From NCBI RefSeq assembly GCF_003711225.1, contig NZ_CP031030.1:5022001-5086000 (forward strand): a stretch of DNA of 64,000 nucleotides, written 5' to 3'. The notes below the pieces were generated by a model. It did not search any database. It was not told the origin of the DNA and saw nothing but the letters and a program-made list of their open reading frames with translations. A program made the position numbers and the translations under genes. This document shows, one piece after another, positions 4,759-61,304 of this stretch; position 1 is the stretch's first letter; the number at the start of each line of letters is the position of its first letter. This DNA comes from Runella sp. SP2. GTDB lineage: Bacteria > Bacteroidota > Bacteroidia > Cytophagales > Spirosomataceae.

Positions 4759-6006
4759 CTATTTTGAACGGATGGCCTCTACGGGGTCCATTCGAGCAGC
4801 TCCAAGGGCAGGAACGATGCCTGCTACTACCCCAATGATGCTCGACACACTGAGCCCGAGAATGATATTTTGGGGGGAAAGAATAATATCCAAACTTCCT
4901 AACGAAATGAAAGACAGCAAATACACCAGTCCAATGCCCACCAAACCACCAATTAAGCTCAAGAAAATGGCTTCAAACAAAAATTGGAACAAGATAAAAT
5001 AGTTCTTTGCGCCCAATGATTTCTGAATCCCGATGAGGTTGGTACGTTCTTTGACCGATACAAACATGATATTGGCGATGCCAAAACCACCTACCAAAAT
5101 CGAGAAGCTACCAATGACCCATCCAGCAATGGTAATCACCCCAAATACCCCCGATACAGCTTTGGTTGCTGCTTCGGGGCGGTTGATGGAAAAATTGGTA
5201 GTTTGGGTAGGTTTAAGCCCTCTTTTGGTACGCAACAATCCTATAATCTCCGCTTCTAGCTCCACTTGCCCTTCATCTTCAGGTTTTCCTTTCACCACAA
5301 TATCGACGCTGTTTTCAACCCGATTTTGAAACGACTTGGCAAAGGTCAAATACGGCAACAACACCTTGGTATCGGGATTACCCGCAATATCGAACAGGCT
5401 TTTTCCTTTTTTCTTCTGAACCCCCACAATCATGTACTTTAAACCCTTGATTTTAAAGCTTTTTCCCGTCGGGTCAGGGTCACTTGGGAAGAGATTTTCG
5501 GCGATTTCTGCCCCGATAATGGCCACACTGCGCCCTGCATCCACTTCTTGTGGGGTAAAGTAGCGGCCTTTTTCTACAGTTACTTCCGAAACTTTGTTGT
5601 ATTCGTACGACACCCCTTGAAGAAGCGCATCCATGCTATTATTGCCATTTTTTGCCGTCAATCCCCCTTTAAAATCCATCACAACGGTAGCTTCTGCTCC
5701 TTCGATACGTTCGGCCAAAAATTTAAAATCGCTGTAGGAAGTTTCTGGCCATTGAAAATATTTCCACCACTGGTATTCGCCCCCAAAACCCCAAGGCCAT
5801 TTTTGGACATAAAGTACGTCGGTACCGATTTCGGCCAAGCTCTGACGGATATTTTTTTCCAACGAATCAACGATGGTAAATACGCCCACAATCGCAAAAA
5901 TCCCTACGGTTACTCCCAACAAAGAAAGGGTAGTACGAAGAATATTTGAGCGAAGTGCTTGCCAAGCAAAACGCAAACTCTCAAAGGTTTGTCGAAAAAA
6001 CTTCAT
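4759..6006 (-). CDS. ABC transporter permease, MacB/FtsX type
   Basis: A 415-residue integral membrane protein with the layout of MacB-type permeases. One membrane helix lies near residues 20-45 (TLSLLGVTVGIFAIVGV), then a large periplasmic core domain (about 50-245), then three C-terminal helices forming the FtsX domain (about 290-405) that ends VPALGAARMDPVEAIRSK, a very typical end. These permeases couple a cytoplasmic ATPase to extrusion of substrates or lipoproteins by conformational change. The partner ATPase and periplasmic adaptor are not in this window. The gene is separated from the neighbouring methylase operon by 63 bp. Confidence 0.9.
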   Translation of the reverse strand: MKFFRQTFESLRFAWQALRSNILRTTLSLLGVTVGIFAIVGVFTIVDSLEKNIRQSLAEIGTDVLYVQKWPWGFGGEYQWWKYFQWPETSYSDFKFLAERIEGAEATVVMDFKGGLTAKNGNNSMDALLQGVSYEYNKVSEVTVEKGRYFTPQEVDAGRSVAIIGAEIAENLFPSDPDPTGKSFKIKGLKYMIVGVQKKKGKSLFDIAGNPDTKVLLPYLTFAKSFQNRVENSVDIVVKGKPEDEGQVELEAEIIGLLRTKRGLKPTQTTNFSINRPEAATKAVSGVFGVITIAGWVIGSFSILVGGFGIANIMFVSVKERTNLIGIQKSLGAKNYFILFQFLFEAIFLSLIGGLVGIGLVYLLSFISLGSLDIILSPQNIILGLSVSSIIGVVAGIVPALGAARMDPVEAIRSK

Positions 6007-6205
6007 GGCCGCTAATAGTTAAGTTGTTACGGAATTTTCGGTACAGAAAACAAAATTCGATTTATGACGCTTTTTTCGCAAACATTTTACACAAGTGGCA
6101 ATCCCGTAGTTTAATTGGTGACGATAAAAGTGGCGTTGGATGTAGTACCAATTCAGAAATTTAGATTTTCTTTGCAGGAAACTCATAGTTAGCACAGTCT
6201 ATTGT

Positions 6206-7000
6206 ATGAAAATCAGTACCAATTCGCGCACAGACCTTTATGTACATATTGCTCTGGTAGTAGCTCTGGTTGTGGCATTATTTTTGGGGTTCTTTTTCGT
6301 GTATTTACCTTTTACAACCAATCACGGACAAAGTATCACGGTGCCTGACCTCAAAGGCATGACCTTAGACCAAATTGAAGACTATCTCGATGAGCGTAAT
6401 CTTCGGTATGAAGTGGCCGATTGTACGTTTGTCGTTGGGCAGAAGCCGCTCAGTGTCATCCGACAACATCCCAAAGCAGGAATGCGGGTAAAAGAAGGGC
6501 GGAAGTTGTATTTGTACATTACGACCCTCAATGCGCCTAATGTAAAAATGTCGCAGCTAGTGGATCGCACCAAAAACAGCGCCATCGCCGAGCTAAAACG
6601 TCTTGGGTTAATGTTAGGTCGTATCAATTACATACCTGACCCCGCCCACGATGCTGTGCTAGAACAATTGTACAACGGCAAGCCCATTTTGCCAGGAACA
6701 TTGATTCCGCAGGGTTCTAAAATAGATCTTAACCTAGGAGATGGCATCGGGAATACTGAATTTGATGTTCCTGACGTTGTAGGTAAAACACTCGAAGATG
6801 CCCTTTTTGTCTTAAAAGGCTCCAACTTAGGAAAACCACTTATTCAATACGTGGATGACCCAAGTCAACCGCCTGGGACTGTCGTACGACAAAACCCTGA
6901 GGCGGGAGCAGGCAACAAAATCCACGTCGGCGATATCATCGACTTGTGGGTAGTCGGGTCGCCAGATACGCAACAGCAACCACAGAATGAACAACTTTAG
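6206..7000 (+). CDS. Membrane-anchored PASTA-domain protein
   Basis: A 264-residue protein with a short cytoplasmic N-terminus, one membrane helix (about residues 14-36) and three extracytoplasmic PASTA domains (about 43-110, 112-183 and 187-252). Each has the usual VPDLKGMTLDQ / VPDVVGKTLEDA start and the RQHPKAG / RQNPEAG turn. PASTA domains bind peptidoglycan fragments in kinases and penicillin-binding proteins. Here there is no kinase or transpeptidase domain, so it may be a wall-sensing or scaffold protein (inference). Its 3' end overlaps the possible upstream start of the next gene. The C-terminus is Gln/Asn-rich. Confidence 0.9.
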   Translation: MKISTNSRTDLYVHIALVVALVVALFLGFFFVYLPFTTNHGQSITVPDLKGMTLDQIEDYLDERNLRYEVADCTFVVGQKPLSVIRQHPKAGMRVKEGRKLYLYITTLNAPNVKMSQLVDRTKNSAIAELKRLGLMLGRINYIPDPAHDAVLEQLYNGKPILPGTLIPQGSKIDLNLGDGIGNTEFDVPDVVGKTLEDALFVLKGSNLGKPLIQYVDDPSQPPGTVVRQNPEAGAGNKIHVGDIIDLWVVGSPDTQQQPQNEQL

Positions 7001-55133: not shown

Positions 55134-55736
55134 ATGGCTTTTACATTAGATCCGCTTCCATACGCATCTGACGCGTTGGAACCCCATTTCGACCAAACGA
55201 CAATGGAAATCCACCACGGTCGTCACCATAATACTTACGTTACGAACCTCAACAATGCCGTAGCTGGTACGCCAAACGAAGGCAAAGGCATCGAAGAATT
55301 GGTAGCCAATGCGGGCGCTATCTCACCAGCCGTTCGTAACAACGGCGGTGGCCACTGGAACCACACGTTTTTCTGGAATATCCTTTCACCCAACGGTGGA
55401 GGTGCTCCAGTAGGTGAATTAGCGGCGGCTATCGACGCTAAATTTGGTTCATTTGATGCGTTCAAGGACGAGTTCAAAAAAGCAGCGTTGGGCCGTTTTG
55501 GTTCGGGCTGGGCGTGGCTTATCAAAACTGCCGAAGGCGTAGCCATCACTTCAACTCCCAACCAAGACAACCCGTTGATGGACATTGCCGAAGTAAAAGG
55601 CACACCTATCCTCGGCCTTGACGTGTGGGAGCACGCTTACTACTTGAAATACCAAAACAAACGCCCCGATTACGTAGATGCGTTTTGGAACGTCGTAGAT
55701 TGGAACAAAGCCGAAGCTACTTTCCAAGGAGCGTAA
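55134..55736 (+). CDS. sodA: Superoxide dismutase, Mn/Fe type
   Basis: Dismutates superoxide to hydrogen peroxide and oxygen in the cytoplasm. It has 200 residues. Metal ligands are His27 (EIHHGRHH), His77 (HWNHTFFW), Asp163 and His167 (DVWEHAYY). The GGGHWNH context favours manganese, though cambialistic enzymes exist. The gene has its own terminator and may be cotranscribed with tadA. Confidence 0.95.
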
Positions 55737-55866: not shown

Positions 55867-56253
55867 TTATTTAACATTCTCTTGTCTCCAATTACTCAAT
55901 TCATGCTGTAATTTTTCGATTTGTGCCAGCTGTTTAGCAATAATTACGTTTTTGGCCTCTATTACTTCTTCTTTGCTCCGTAAAACAAGCCTCATCGCCT
56001 CATTTTCGTCCATTTTTTTGGTTAATATAGTACTACTATTCCATTTATTTTCGTTGTTGTCTGGGAAGAGTTCATTTATATTTACCCCAAAAATTACGGC
56101 TAACTCAGGTAAATACCTAGCTGAGGGGTATGTATGGCCTGCTTCCCAAGAACCGTAGATGTTGGTTTTGATACCAAGTTGGTCGGCTACAGCCTGTTGG
56201 GTCAATTTTGAGGCTGCGCGGTATTGACACAGCTTCGCTGCAATACTACTCAT
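55867..56253 (-). CDS. XRE-family helix-turn-helix regulator
   Basis: A 128-residue DNA-binding protein. The N-terminal HTH (about residues 5-62: LCQYRAASKLTQQAVADQLGI, then YGSWEAGHTYPSARYLPELA in pieces) is followed by a coiled coil (about 80-125) that suits dimerisation. It is divergent from the decayed RiPP precursor gene and shares a 200-bp control region with it, so it may once have regulated that locus. The dyad at 56338-56356 is a candidate operator. Confidence 0.87.
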   Translation of the reverse strand: MSSIAAKLCQYRAASKLTQQAVADQLGIKTNIYGSWEAGHTYPSARYLPELAVIFGVNINELFPDNNENKWNSSTILTKKMDENEAMRLVLRSKEEVIEAKNVIIAKQLAQIEKLQHELSNWRQENVK

Positions 56254-56457
56254 GTGAGACTGTTGTAGGTGAGAGAAAATTTGTACAAAGTAAAAATTAT
56301 AAAGATAGCTTGTTCAAACAAATAAAAAAGTCGTTTTTTTGATATTTTTTATCAAATTTCCGTAGCAGCTCTAACTAAAATTAATTCTATGTTTGTTGCA
56401 TCCGAAAGCAGCCACTCGCAATAGTGCGAGCCTAAAACCCTTCGGTAAATGACAATT
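56254..56457. promoter_or_regulatory. Divergent control region of the RiPP locus
   Basis: Holds TTTGATA-TTTTT-TATCAAA (56338-56356), an operator-like dyad, and the hairpin CTCGCA-ATAG-TGCGAG (56415-56430), placed 28 bp before the precursor start. Both are candidates for control by the XRE regulator or for RNA structure. Confidence 0.5.
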
Positions 56458-56721
56458 ATGGAAAAATTAACAGAAAGTAAGTTTGGAAAGTTTGAGGGAA
56501 AAAAGATTGAAGAACTATCACTAATTAAAGGAGGGGATAAAGTAGTAGCTACTGGTGGAGGTTCAGAAATTTCAAATAGATCTTTCATTGTATAGAACTC
56601 AGATTCTACCTATATATTTAGCAATGGGAATCCATCTGTAACTTCAAAAGTTGGTGTTTCGAGCTATCCACTTGTAGACACTGGAGGCAGTAATGGTGGC
56701 GGCACAGGAGCTATAGCTTAA
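56458..56721 (+). pseudogene. RiPP precursor peptide with in-frame TAG (GwsA-like)
   Basis: A short gene with ATG at 56458 (or 56449). The first 45 residues are leader-like: a charged KFGKFEGKKIEELSLIKGG stretch ending in the Gly-Gly processing site at residues 25-26, then a Gly/Ser/Thr-rich core. A TAG at 56593-56595 interrupts it after 45 codons. The same frame then continues for 41 codons (TGGSNGGGTGAIA at the end) to TAA at 56719-56721, rich in Ser, Thr, Gly and with Asp acceptors. The total is 87 codons. This matches the GG-leader precursors of grasp-with-spasm peptide systems. Amber loss of function is the simplest reading. It lies 64 bp before the TPR-like gene. Confidence 0.72.
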
Positions 56722-56785
56722 GTATTATTACAAGATAGTTTATGATTTAGTAATTAACATAAACTATCTTCTAAAACCAATTAGG

Positions 56786-57826
56786 ATGAAAAAGCAGTTT
56801 TGGACACAAATATTATTTGTATGCATCAGAGTTTATAGCTGTTTTGGGCAGAATAGTCTTGAATACTATTCTAAAATTAACGAAGCTGAATTAGCCATTT
56901 TAGATTCTAACTACTCTAAAAGTTGTTCTTATTATAGAGATGCTTTTAAAATTAATAATTCAAGTTTTGCAAAAGATTACTATAATGCTGCAATTGTGGC
57001 TGCATATGTTAAAGATACGAATTTAATTATTCATTGTTTTTCGCAGCTTGCCCGCAAGGGTGTTTGTTTATCGTATTTAAAAAAACAACACTCATGGTCT
57101 TTATTTAAAGAAAATTACGATTTATCTTATTTTGAAAAAATACAATTTCAAAAATTTAGAGAAGATTATTTAAAAAGTACAAATTTTTATTTGAAAAGAA
57201 AATTAGACAATATTTACGAGACGAATCAAGATATTTTGTTAAAAAATTACCCTGATAGCCATCAGCGGCATATAAATAATATAAATGAACTTGATAGTCT
57301 AATAAGAGTTTTTGGATTCCCAAGTGAAGAGTTGATAGGAGTAGGAGATTCTTTAGAAGTCTCTCCCATGTATTTATATTCCATTTACAATCTTGATACT
57401 CAAGGATATAAAAATAATATTTTTTTTGATCTTCTTAAAAAAGCAACCATTCATGGAAAAATCCATCCTGGTGTTTCGTCATTTTATTTAAGCCTACTTA
57501 ACCCTCTTTTTGAATTAGAAAAAACTGCAGTATATAAAATAGTAACCTCCGACACTTTGATAATGAGTCAAGATGATTATAAAAGTAAAATAAATAAATG
57601 GGTATATCCAATCTACCCTGAAAATTATTTACAAAAAATCAATAAGAATAGGCAGGAAATTGGCTGGGAAGATTTTTTAACTTACCAAAGAAAAGTAATA
57701 TATAACTTAAAAAACAATAATTTTATCTTTTCATTGAACGGAGGACTATCTACATATCAATGTGACACTGAATATGTGGCACAAAAATACCTTAATAATG
57801 TCCAGATAATAGAAAACACAAAATGA
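56786..57826 (+). CDS. Secreted TPR-like protein of the RiPP locus
   Basis: A 346-residue exported protein with a signal peptide (CIRVYSCFGQ end, near residue 22) and TAGGATG at the start region. The N-terminal half resembles TPR helices (ELAILDSNYSKSCSYYRDAF, then KDYYNAAIVAAYVKDTN in pieces). I do not know its function. It is markedly AT-rich compared with the rest of the window. Similar TPR-like exported proteins accompany precursor and maturase genes in Bacteroidota peptide loci (from memory). Its TGA overlaps the ATG of the ATP-grasp gene (ATGA), which fits an operon. The frame is intact. Confidence 0.72.
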   Translation: MKKQFWTQILFVCIRVYSCFGQNSLEYYSKINEAELAILDSNYSKSCSYYRDAFKINNSSFAKDYYNAAIVAAYVKDTNLIIHCFSQLARKGVCLSYLKKQHSWSLFKENYDLSYFEKIQFQKFREDYLKSTNFYLKRKLDNIYETNQDILLKNYPDSHQRHINNINELDSLIRVFGFPSEELIGVGDSLEVSPMYLYSIYNLDTQGYKNNIFFDLLKKATIHGKIHPGVSSFYLSLLNPLFELEKTAVYKIVTSDTLIMSQDDYKSKINKWVYPIYPENYLQKINKNRQEIGWEDFLTYQRKVIYNLKNNNFIFSLNGGLSTYQCDTEYVAQKYLNNVQIIENTK

Positions 57827-58704
57827 TTGTTATCATTTCACCACTTACTGAAAAAACTATTAATGATGTTATAAATTGGATTTTATTATTTAATATTTCC
57901 TTTTTTTCAAAATTACAGAAAACAAAGACCTACTAACATCATGTGCTAATGAAAAAACTAAAAAAATATGGTATAGAAAAGGATTAAATACCTATAAAAA
58001 ATATAAACAATCATTTCAGATTACTTCGATTTTGAGTTGACAATTTTATCCGACTTTTGCATCAAACAACTGGAACAAAAACCTCACATAGGCAATTATT
58101 TTCAGCGAGTCCCCAACAAACTCTGGCATTTAGAAATGGCGCGGCAGGCGGGGTTAGATATACCCGACATGCTCATTACTACTCACAAAGCAGAGGCACA
58201 AGACTTTGTCAAAAAGCATCCATCAGTTATCAACAAATCCATCAAAGACTCATTCACTGGCACTTTTGAGGGCGTGTATTACTACAATCATACCGAGCGC
58301 GTATCAACGTGGTGGTGGAGTTAGACGAAGAATTTTTTCCTACATTATTTCAAGAAGAAATTCCTAAAGCCTATGAATTGAGGGTGATATTTGTCCATGA
58401 AAAAATGTGGGCAGGAGCCATTATGTCGCAAAGCGACCCTAAAACTTCCTTGGATTGGCGTAACTACAACCACGAAAAACCCAACCGAATCGTGCCTTAC
58501 AAACTACCAAGTGAGGTAGAAGAAAAAATAAGAAAGTTTGCTCAACTGGCCGACCTCAACGCGGGAGCTATTGACATGATAGTGAGTAAAGATAAACGCT
58601 ATGTTTTCTTGGAGTGTAACCCCAACAGACAAATAAGCATGGTGTCTGAAAAATGTAATTATCCCATCGAAAAATACATCGCTGATTTTTTGGCAAACGC
58701 ATGA
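57823..58704 (+). pseudogene. ATP-grasp peptide maturase, frameshifted (GwsG-like)
   Basis: In intact form this ATP-grasp ligase makes ester or amide cross-links in a precursor peptide. The start MIVIISPLTEKTINDVINW (57823) matches the family's N-terminus, but the frame closes at a TAA near 57937. A shift at the T7 run near 57900 brings KITENKDLL through IWYRKG into a second frame, which closes at 58039. A third frame (58037-58324) carries IGNYFQRVPNKLWHLEMA, and a fourth (58309-58704) carries ELRVIFVHEK, DWRNYNHEKPNR and FLECNPNRQISMV, the ATP-binding end. DNA is AT-rich to about 58030 and of normal composition afterwards. The stop overlaps the following ATG (ATGA). Confidence 0.82.
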
Positions 58705-58892
58705 AAGAAAAAGAAATGGGTGAGATTCCCGAACTGAAAGGAGTAAAGGGACTGCCCGTCACTTTCAAACTCTTGACCAAAGTAGCCGTAAACGAAACGC
58801 CCAAGAAGAATCTATTTTTTTACGTAACGGCTTATCAGGGCATGGCATTGGCCGAGGCTTTTGAAAAGCCCTATTCAAAAATTATCAACTGA
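58701..58892 (+). CDS. Small open reading frame between the two maturase genes
   Basis: A 63-residue frame whose ATG overlaps the TGA of the ATP-grasp gene. It starts with a charged stretch (KEKEMGEIPELKG) and ends in a hydrophobic, aromatic part (NLFFYVTAYQGMALAEAF). I recognise no family. The overlap suggests it was translated in the operon. It may be a genuine small accessory gene of the locus or a remnant. Confidence 0.4.
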   Translation: MKEKEMGEIPELKGVKGLPVTFKLLTKVAVNETPKKNLFFYVTAYQGMALAEAFEKPYSKIIN

Positions 58893-58902
58893 CAAGAATA
58901 GA

Positions 58903-59709
58903 ATGGCAGAGTCATTTTTTAGATTGTACGCTTGCTGTTTATTGGTTAAAGGAACTAAACGAAGCATGATTTGTGACGTACAACGAGGAAGTTTTCACCT
59001 GATACCCAATGGGCTACACGAAATCCTAACAGTGCACAGACAAAACTCTGTCGATGCAATTAAAGCCTTTTATCATTTTCAGTACGATGAAACCATTGAA
59101 GAATATTTCGATTTTTTGATCGCCAACGAATTTGGCTTTTACTCCGACCAAGCTGACTTAGCGTTATTCCCTGATATTTCAATGGATTGGGAGGTTCCTT
59201 TTGAGGTTACAAACGCCATTATTGATGTAGATGCGCAAAGTCAGCATGATTATGTGCGTATTTTAGACCAATTTGAACAGGTAGGATGTCGTCATTTTCA
59301 AATAAGGGTCTATGTTGAAAAGCCGTTGAGTTACTTTGTATCGTTGTTAGATAGTTTAGAAAACAGGCGTATCATTTCGGTAGAATTGCTCATTAAATAC
59401 GGCGAAGAAACAACCCTTGAAAACTTAAAAACACTGACAGACAACTACCCAAGGATTCACAATTTGATAGTACACGGTGCTTCTTTCAACCGCATCATCC
59501 CCGACCCGTCGGGGATGGGTAATGTGGTGTTTGTTGAGCAAGAAATTAGTAATGAAACGCACTGTGGGCTAATCTCGACGGCGTATTTTTCGATTAACCT
59601 TGCTACGTTTTTAGAATCCCAAAAACACAACACCTGTCTCAATCGCAAGATTTCAGTAGATGCTTTCATGCAGAAATGTACGCGGGGCAGCACAATTTTG
59701 GAAAAGTAA
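58903..59709 (+). pseudogene. SPASM-protein maturase, C-terminus lost (GwsS-like)
   Basis: Starts at ATG 58903 (an earlier TTG is ignored). The 268-residue frame matches the grasp-with-spasm SPASM-domain peptide maturases in its N-terminal pattern (FFRLYACCLLVKGTKRSMICD, in pieces; HLIPNGLHEIL) and in the later NTCLNRKISVD segment. In the family this segment is followed by about 75 residues with the cysteine-rich SPASM cluster. Here the homology stops at about 59663 and the last 15 residues (FMQKCTRGSTILEK) come from another reading frame. The protein therefore lacks its metal-cluster region and is very probably dead. Confidence 0.8.
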
Positions 59710-59978
59710 AGCAAGGTCAGGAGGTAATCGTTAAGTTGCCTAGCTATTCTTTTCAAGAATTTGGAACCGTGCGCGGGCAAGTACGTAGTATTTCGGAATT
59801 GCCCCAAGATAGTACCTACTTACTCAAAATCAGTTTTCCTGAAGGGTTATTAGTTACCTCTTCAAAACGAACAATCCCATTTCGCAACGGCATGACGGCC
59901 ACAGGTGAAATCATCACCGAAGACCTACGCCTCATTGAACGACTCTTCTACGATTTTCGCCGAATGTTGAAAAGGTAA
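59667..59978 (+). pseudogene. C-terminal remnant of an HlyD-family exporter subunit
   Basis: The frame from about 59667 encodes the last 100 residues of an HlyD-type membrane-fusion protein: AEMYAGQHNFGKVKQGQEV (partly), KLPSYSFQEFGTVRGQV, then RNGMTATGEIITEDLRLIERLF. About 330 N-terminal residues, including the membrane helix and coiled coil, are missing. It overlaps the end of the SPASM gene in another frame. Family exporters of this kind work with a peptidase-containing ABC transporter, which has been lost too. Confidence 0.82.
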
Positions 59979-60065: not shown

Positions 60066-61304
60066 ATGGCTGCAATTAATTGCTCATTTTGCGGCAGACG
60101 CAAGAACGAGGTTCAGCTCCTGCTTTCGGGCATCGATGCCCATATTTGTAACTTCTGTATCGAACAAGGATACGGGGTAGTGCAAGAAGAGTTGTACCCA
60201 AAAAAGAAAAAAGAAAAGCCTTCTACGCCGAAGTTTAACCTTGTTAAGCCTCTGGAAATGAAGCGCTACCTCGACCAATATATCATCGGCCAGGACGAGG
60301 CTAAACGAACGCTTTCGGTGGCCGTTTATAACCACTACAAGCGCCTCATGCAGCCAAAATCGAACGATGAGGTACAGATTGAGAAATCGAACATCATCAT
60401 GGTGGGTGAAACAGGAACGGGAAAAACGTATTTGGCGCGTACCATCGCCAAAATGCTCCAAGTTCCTTTCTGCATTGCTGACGCGACCGTCGTGACCGAA
60501 GCGGGTTATGTGGGCGAAGACGTCGAAACCATCTTGACGCGTCTCCTCCAAGCGGCCGATTACAACGCCGAAGCTGCCGAGCGTGGGATCGTCTTTATTG
60601 ATGAAATTGATAAAATTGCGCGCAAGAGCGATAACCCTTCTATCACCCGCGACGTGAGTGGCGAAGGGGTACAGCAAGCGCTTCTTAAATTGTTGGAAGG
60701 CTCGGTGGTGAACGTACCGCCGCAAGGAGGGCGTAAGCATCCTGACCAAAAGCTGATTCCGCTCAATACTGAAAACATTTTGTTTATCTGCGGAGGAGCT
60801 TTTGATGGTATCGACCGCCACATTGCCAAACGGATTAACTCGCGTCCGATTGGGTTTACGACCGACCGCCGTTTGGGTGAAATTTTCGACAAAGGCAACT
60901 TGCTTCGCTACGTAGCCGCCCAAGACTTGAAGTCGTTTGGTCTGATTCCTGAGCTTATCGGGCGTCTTCCTGCGTTGACATACCTCAATCCACTCGACCG
61001 CGACGCGCTTCGTCAGATTTTAACGGAGCCCAAAAACGCGTTGACAAAACAGTACAAAAAGCTGTTTGCCATGGAAGGTATTGCCCTCACTTTCGACGAT
61101 GAAGTGCTCGAATACATCGTTGACCAAGCGTTGGCGTACAAACTCGGTGCCCGTGGTCTTCGCTCCATCTGTGAAGCCATTATGACCGATGCGATGTTTG
61201 ATTTGCCATCCAACAAAGACGTTAAAGAGTTTACCCTTACGCTCGATTACGCCCGCGAGAAGTTTGAGCGTTCGTCTATACACATCCTTAAATCAGTCGC
61301 CTAA
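60066..61304 (+). CDS. clpX: ATP-dependent Clp protease ATP-binding subunit ClpX
   Basis: Unfolds proteins and feeds them to ClpP. The ATG at 60066 gives 412 residues starting at the zinc-binding domain (Cys6, Cys9, Cys28, Cys31); a TTG four codons upstream is unlikely. Walker A is GETGTGKT (114-121), the pore loop is GYVG (147-150), and Walker B VFIDE (176-180) is followed by IDKIARK. The RKH-type loop (GGRKHPDQ) is present. The clpP gene is not adjacent. Its stop overlaps the next ATG (TAATG). Confidence 0.97.

Follow-up and report, generated by a model that had tools for sequence, protein, structure and literature searches.

A recently inactivated grasp-with-spasm graspetide locus between sodA and clpX in Runella, with evidence of segment exchange

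Introduction

Among described systems, the Bacteroidetes graspetides of "branch 5" (PMC8939145) and the graspetides that co-occur with SPASM proteins are among the closest comparisons for the locus reported here, a stretch of ligase, maturase and secretion gene remnants in Runella sp. SP2. It lies in a 64,000-nucleotide stretch of contig NZ_CP031030.1 (positions 5,022,001 to 5,086,000), hereafter the window, in which all coordinates are given. According to the sections of PMC8939145 available to us, branch 5 precursors are unrelated between species with similar ligases, their cores are hypervariable, and most of them match no model. The same sections describe exchange of precursors or of whole loci, as for chryseoviridin, and contain no case of ligase-domain exchange; they also describe the LPL family, for which Makarova and colleagues proposed the role of a PqqD-like chaperone. 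The accessible sections of PMC8939145 and PMC13097080 name no characterized product of the SPASM graspetide group. Our literature search on "grasp-with-spasm" found no paper, and the Runella papers found concern an R. limosa lanthipeptide from a different locus.

Based on knowledge of the families, the ATP-grasp ligase of an intact system would cross-link Ser, Thr or Lys to Asp or Glu side chains in the precursor core, forming lactones or lactams. The SPASM protein and its LPL partner would carry out a further or assisting step, and an ABC transporter with a C39 peptidase domain would cleave the peptide after the GG motif and export it together with HlyD.

Results

We consider it very probable that positions 56449-59978 represent a recently inactivated grasp-with-spasm (SPASM-associated graspetide) locus, recognized by TIGR04192 and TIGR04193 and situated between sodA (55134-55736) and clpX (60066-61304), which is the fixed site of this locus in Runella. 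The features are as follows.

56449-56721, plus strand: precursor peptide gene with conserved leader MEKLTESKFGKFEG and GG motif; open reading frame (ORF) 56449-56595, in-frame TAG at 56593-56595 in the core, frame running on to 56721
56786-57826, plus strand: intact gene for a secreted TPR-like (helical repeat) protein of 346 residues with an N-terminal signal-like segment
57823-58704, plus strand: ATP-grasp ligase (graspetide synthetase) pseudogene with three frameshifts, near 57900, at 58010-58025 and at 58310-58324
58701-58892, plus strand: intact small gene of the LPL family, 63 residues, assigned by position and LP motif
58903-59662, plus strand: 5' part of a SPASM-domain maturase gene (TIGR04193), with an out-of-frame tail to 59709
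59662-59663, no strand: deletion junction
59663-59978, plus strand: 3' remnant of an HlyD secretion gene, with the C terminus at 59676-59978
56502-58066, plus strand: exchanged segment (precursor core, TPR-like gene, ATP-grasp N-domain), delimited by sliding identity, site-pattern tests and GC content
55867-56253, minus strand: HTH (Xre-type) gene, divergent from the precursor gene (Pfam HTH_3, E 1.6e-9)

In a scan with NCBIfam models, TIGR04192 was the best of all models for the ligase pieces, matching 58037-58324 (model positions 102-188, E 1.2e-12) and 58309-58704 (positions 194-318, E 9.6e-50), and the pieces belong to this family. The break-up of the gene keeps each single piece under the 230-bit cut-off. 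TIGR04193 matches ORF 58861-59709 with 190.5 bits (cut-off 175) over positions 1-249 of 342. These matches are not due to chance, since whole-genome profile searches gave neither model elsewhere in the genome; the genome yielded no second graspetide locus and no further copy of the ligase or SPASM gene.

The main lesion of the window copy is a deletion of about 3.6 kb, which we mapped by blastn and by direct alignment of the junction with the corresponding locus (L017) of the sister species Runella limosa DSM 17973 (G004). The junction is clean, with 1-bp microhomology, and 3,566 bp of R. limosa sequence are missing. Lost with them are the 3' end of the SPASM gene with the SPASM domain (in the R. 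limosa protein, PF13186 spans residues 254-311), the C39-peptidase ABC exporter in its entirety and the 5' part, that is most, of the HlyD gene. The remaining HlyD C terminus matches TIGR01843 (positions 317-408, E 7.6e-12) and shares 78% identity with the C-terminal region of the R. limosa protein. The R. limosa locus is intact, at the same sodA-clpX site and in the same gene order: a divergent HTH gene, then genes for a precursor of 81 residues, a TPR-like protein of ~347, a ligase of 300, the LPL-type protein, a SPASM protein of ~350, a C39-ABC exporter of 765 (Peptidase_C39, E 7.3e-29) and an HlyD of 429 residues, of which last two genes the window retains only the HlyD 3' end. Because the deletion took essential parts, the window copy is inactive whatever the state of its homopolymers.

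The ligase and the precursor are damaged in addition. Aligning 43 ligase ORFs, with a few loci sampled twice, yielded a profile that locates the homology in four ordered pieces (profile positions 1-29, 55-83, 85-182 and 188-314) across three frames; each piece lies in another frame than its predecessor, and there are therefore three frameshifts, one at a run of seven T and the other two not. In the ECNPNGQ motif of its relatives, Gly is replaced by Arg. The R. limosa orthologue is a single ORF of 300 residues. The leader region of the precursor is 52-70% identical to those of the R. limosa and G007 precursors, and a short alignment of four precursors, with gaps, puts the TAG near the VW(S/D)E segment of the relatives; the TAG is likely a nonsense change. 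No NCBIfam precursor model matches the window precursor, and neither TIGR04149 nor TIGR04194 matches it or the precursors of R. limosa, G007 or G003. This does not exclude membership, since most branch 5 precursors match no model according to the accessible part of PMC8939145. A shikimate-kinase-like match (E 0.0024) is far below the model cut-off and was taken as chance. The precursor of a further genome, G134, does match TIGR04194: at L023:9944-10286 it has two nearly identical tandem precursors of 49 residues, of which the tested one gave E 2.4e-15. Given the frameshifts, the TAG and the deletion, the window genome lacks the combination of intact ligase, precursor and exporter of a functional graspetide producer, and its pathway is blocked: the deletion took the SPASM domain along with the exporter and most of HlyD, the ligase is fragmented and the core is shortened.

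The fragments still bear the mark of past purifying selection. Comparison of the window with R. limosa gave ratios of nonsynonymous to synonymous substitution rates (dN/dS) of 0.04-0.08 in the pieces of the ligase C-domain and of the LPL, SPASM and HlyD genes; one ligase piece of 78 codons reached 0.35. The low ratios indicate that the genes kept working over most of the period since the divergence of the two copies, and the inactivation is therefore recent.

Site patterns show that the locus is also a recombination mosaic, in which the segment of about 56500-58066 was exchanged between lineages. In neighboring genes, the window and R. limosa are 92-95% identical, and R. limosa and G007 77-85%; in the TPR-like gene the relation reverses, with 48% and 87%, respectively. 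The identities flip reciprocally within ~100 bases: to the left, identity is 84-92% for R. limosa and G007 and ~50-60% for the window and R. limosa; to the right, the first pair falls to 68-75% and the second rises to 84-95%. This right switch is at window position 58066, inside the ligase gene. To its left, 445 versus 28 sites favor grouping R. limosa with G007, and to its right, 259 versus 93 favor grouping R. limosa with the window; the maximum chi-square is 407 at 58066, whereas 1000 permutations gave 21.8 at best. In the ligase protein, the switch falls at residue ~90, just before the similarity to solved graspetide ligases starts (residues 97-104), which places it about at the boundary of the N-domain. 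Among the 43 ligase ORFs, R. limosa and G002 form the sole discrepant pair, with 87% identity in the C part and 29% in the N part. At the left end, the identities change within the sequence that codes for the leader or immediately upstream of it (56401-56501). The GC content of the exchanged segment is ~0.28 (0.27-0.29 in all four genomes), and that of the window is 0.448.

R. limosa may be the recipient of the foreign segment, because the identity between R. limosa and G007 in this segment exceeds that in tadA, sodA and clpX. Synonymous divergence (dS) between the window and R. limosa is 1.3-1.7 in the SPASM and HlyD pieces versus 0.24-0.43 in neighboring genes, which suggests further exchange downstream. 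There are hints of another exchange boundary inside the SPASM gene, whose last 96 residues hardly vary across Runella (dN 0.02-0.04), in contrast to a strongly divergent N-terminal part (L021 and L019 versus L017).

We compared 13 Runella genomes, counting the window genome. R. limosa has an intact locus and one draft an apparently intact one; besides the window genome, four others carry a broken or relic copy, and the rest have none. The draft is G002, where the locus spans two contigs and is complete save for a contig gap in the TPR-like gene. In G007, the frames of the TPR-like and ligase genes are damaged, and the exporter gene is interrupted at two contig ends with a terminal inverted repeat in common, the kind of trace that an insertion sequence leaves; errors in the draft assembly could account for some of these lesions. 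At the sodA-clpX site of G003 the copy is broken, with ligase and SPASM genes damaged. Elsewhere in G003 there is a second grasp-with-spasm locus (L020:4481-8292) with two tandem precursors containing KKKK stretches, its ligase split by a transposase-like ORF pair (5450-6461). Only relics of HlyD and the HTH gene remain in G008, and a 40-bp piece of HlyD in G010. The sodA-clpX interval is free of the locus in G001, G006, G009, G011 and G012, and no locus was seen in G005; G001 is a very close relative of the window genome (clpX 99% identical). Repeated independent loss across Runella is the simplest reading.

The HTH gene beside the precursor is probably the regulator of the locus, because close orthologues (60-85% identical) occur only in locus-bearing genomes, at the sodA-clpX site of R. 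limosa, G003 and G002, and a decayed one in G008. The remaining Runella genomes have only distant HTH proteins (at most 39% identity). The link is not absolute: G007 has the locus and no close HTH orthologue.

For the TPR-like protein, an AlphaFold2 model is mainly helical (mean pLDDT 81.8), the top Foldseek matches are weak ones to TPR proteins, and no Pfam family matched; it is 31% identical to its R. limosa counterpart over the alignable part. In many Spirosomataceae, relatives of this protein often adjoin genes for RseP-like proteases (L036-L044).

The LPL-type gene is 84-94% identical in G002, G007 and R. limosa and always lies between the ATP-grasp and SPASM genes; by position and LP motif, not by family profile, it fits the LPL family as the available part of PMC8939145 describes it.

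The view that the SPASM protein is a radical SAM enzyme is unsupported: the CX3CX2C motif was absent from 10 of the 10 TIGR04193 sequences examined, that of R. limosa included, and the R. limosa protein has no Radical_SAM Pfam match. In two further loci, L011 (G072) and L012 (G062), SPASM-like proteins related to TIGR04193, with open frames and encoded beside an ATP-grasp and a small gene, retain almost none of the C-terminal SPASM cysteines, so that these proteins may do without Fe-S binding.

A first-pass annotation, made from the window sequence, had called a decayed grasp-with-spasm locus with a GG-leader precursor interrupted by a TAG, a secreted TPR-like gene, an ATP-grasp gene in several frames, a truncated SPASM-type maturase and an HlyD fragment. 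All of these parts were recovered here, and the profiles agree with the family proposed. Its further suggestions that the system is inactive and that neighbors may keep an intact version are borne out by R. limosa, and "decayed" can be refined to recently inactivated. Consecutive ATGA overlaps were found at two joins only, TPR/ATP-grasp (57823-57826) and ATP-grasp/LPL (58701-58704), the SPASM/HlyD overlap being a product of the deletion junction, and the assignment of the precursor to TIGR04149 did not hold. The deletion, the LPL-type gene and the HTH gene had been missed.

Discussion

Some points weigh against the interpretation of the window locus as a recently inactivated graspetide system. 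The window copy is documented by one assembly, from one strain; the frameshift at the run of seven T is a possible sequencing error, an explanation that does not extend to the deletion; and the TPR-like, LPL and HTH genes are still open, so that some residual function is possible. An intact locus whose damage is entirely due to sequencing or assembly error could also draw on the length and low dN/dS of several fragments, yet we give this explanation almost no weight: base-level read errors are insufficient to produce a clean deletion of this size, two further frameshifts lie outside long homopolymers, the precursor has an in-frame TAG, and the assembly, in 4 contigs, reaches 99.98% completeness. 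The deletion rules out sequencing error as the only cause, and resequencing of homopolymers could not restore the locus, given the full-length genes of R. limosa at this site. Alternatively, the remnant could retain a reduced function, the secreted TPR-like protein, with the HTH gene, serving as an immunity or receptor factor against the peptide of intact neighbors. The open frame of 346 codons with a signal-like start, the intact HTH gene that tracks the locus, and the general observation that orphan immunity genes are common in bacteriocin systems are consistent with this possibility, which remains speculative and which we regard as unlikely. As the decay is recent, an open frame is expected without selection, and relatives of the TPR-like protein adjoin rseP-like genes in genomes in which no TIGR04193 protein was found, so that its role need not be immunity.

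It could be argued that the segment 56502-58066 was not exchanged and merely evolves fast, since branch 5 precursor cores are described as hypervariable in the available part of PMC8939145. We consider this highly improbable in view of the reciprocal identity switches within so short a distance, and reject it on the chi-square test and the comparison of ligase ORFs, in which the divergence confined to the N part was seen in the Runella pair only. With exchange shown, we infer that it alters the peptide product. A broader proposal, which we put forward tentatively and think more doubtful than not, is that this Runella site diversifies its peptide through one swapped module reaching from the precursor leader to the ligase N-domain boundary. 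The N-domain would then match the core and the TPR-like protein would be the cognate immunity or receptor factor, the catalytic domain, SPASM C terminus and exporter remaining constant. Exchange at the ligase domain boundary was not found in the literature that we examined, which is no proof that it is unreported.

Systems of this kind are already known, and a relic and its decay are ordinary; the domain-boundary swap is the sole part of specialist interest. The window relic is a further case of a lineage that has lost a graspetide cluster; such repeated loss is consistent with a peptide that is costly or frequency-dependent. The R. limosa copy, and probably the G002 copy, are candidate producers for the SPASM-associated graspetide group, and the mosaic ligases provide a natural experiment on which ligase domain pairs with which core peptide.

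By comparison with known systems, the LPL-type gene directly upstream of the SPASM gene resembles the arrangement in branch 5 as described in the available part of PMC8939145, and the SPASM-co-occurring graspetides, termed "group 14" in the accessible part of PMC13097080, are also close to the Runella locus. Shared, too, is that species with similar ligases have unrelated precursors. Unlike the exchanges reported in PMC8939145, the one in Runella made the ligase itself mosaic, its N-domain having been exchanged along with the precursor core and the TPR-like gene. As in grasp-with-spasm systems (NCBIfam TIGR04192, TIGR04193 and TIGR04194), ligase and SPASM genes are adjacent with a GG-leader precursor upstream, and in R. 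limosa the C39-ABC and HlyD genes follow downstream; by contrast, the window copy is broken, its ligase pieces fall under the TIGR04192 cut-off, and the Runella precursors lack a TIGR04194 or TIGR04149 match. Unlike the ligases of chryseoviridin (CdnA/CdnC) and microviridin (MdnB/MdnC), the R. limosa ligase begins with 96 residues that have no detectable sequence match. To our knowledge, the chryseoviridin and microviridin systems have no TIGR04193 protein. Over residues ~97-299, the R. limosa ligase is like the chryseoviridin and microviridin ligases and aligns with the solved AMdnB, 5ig8, 5ig9 and CdnC.

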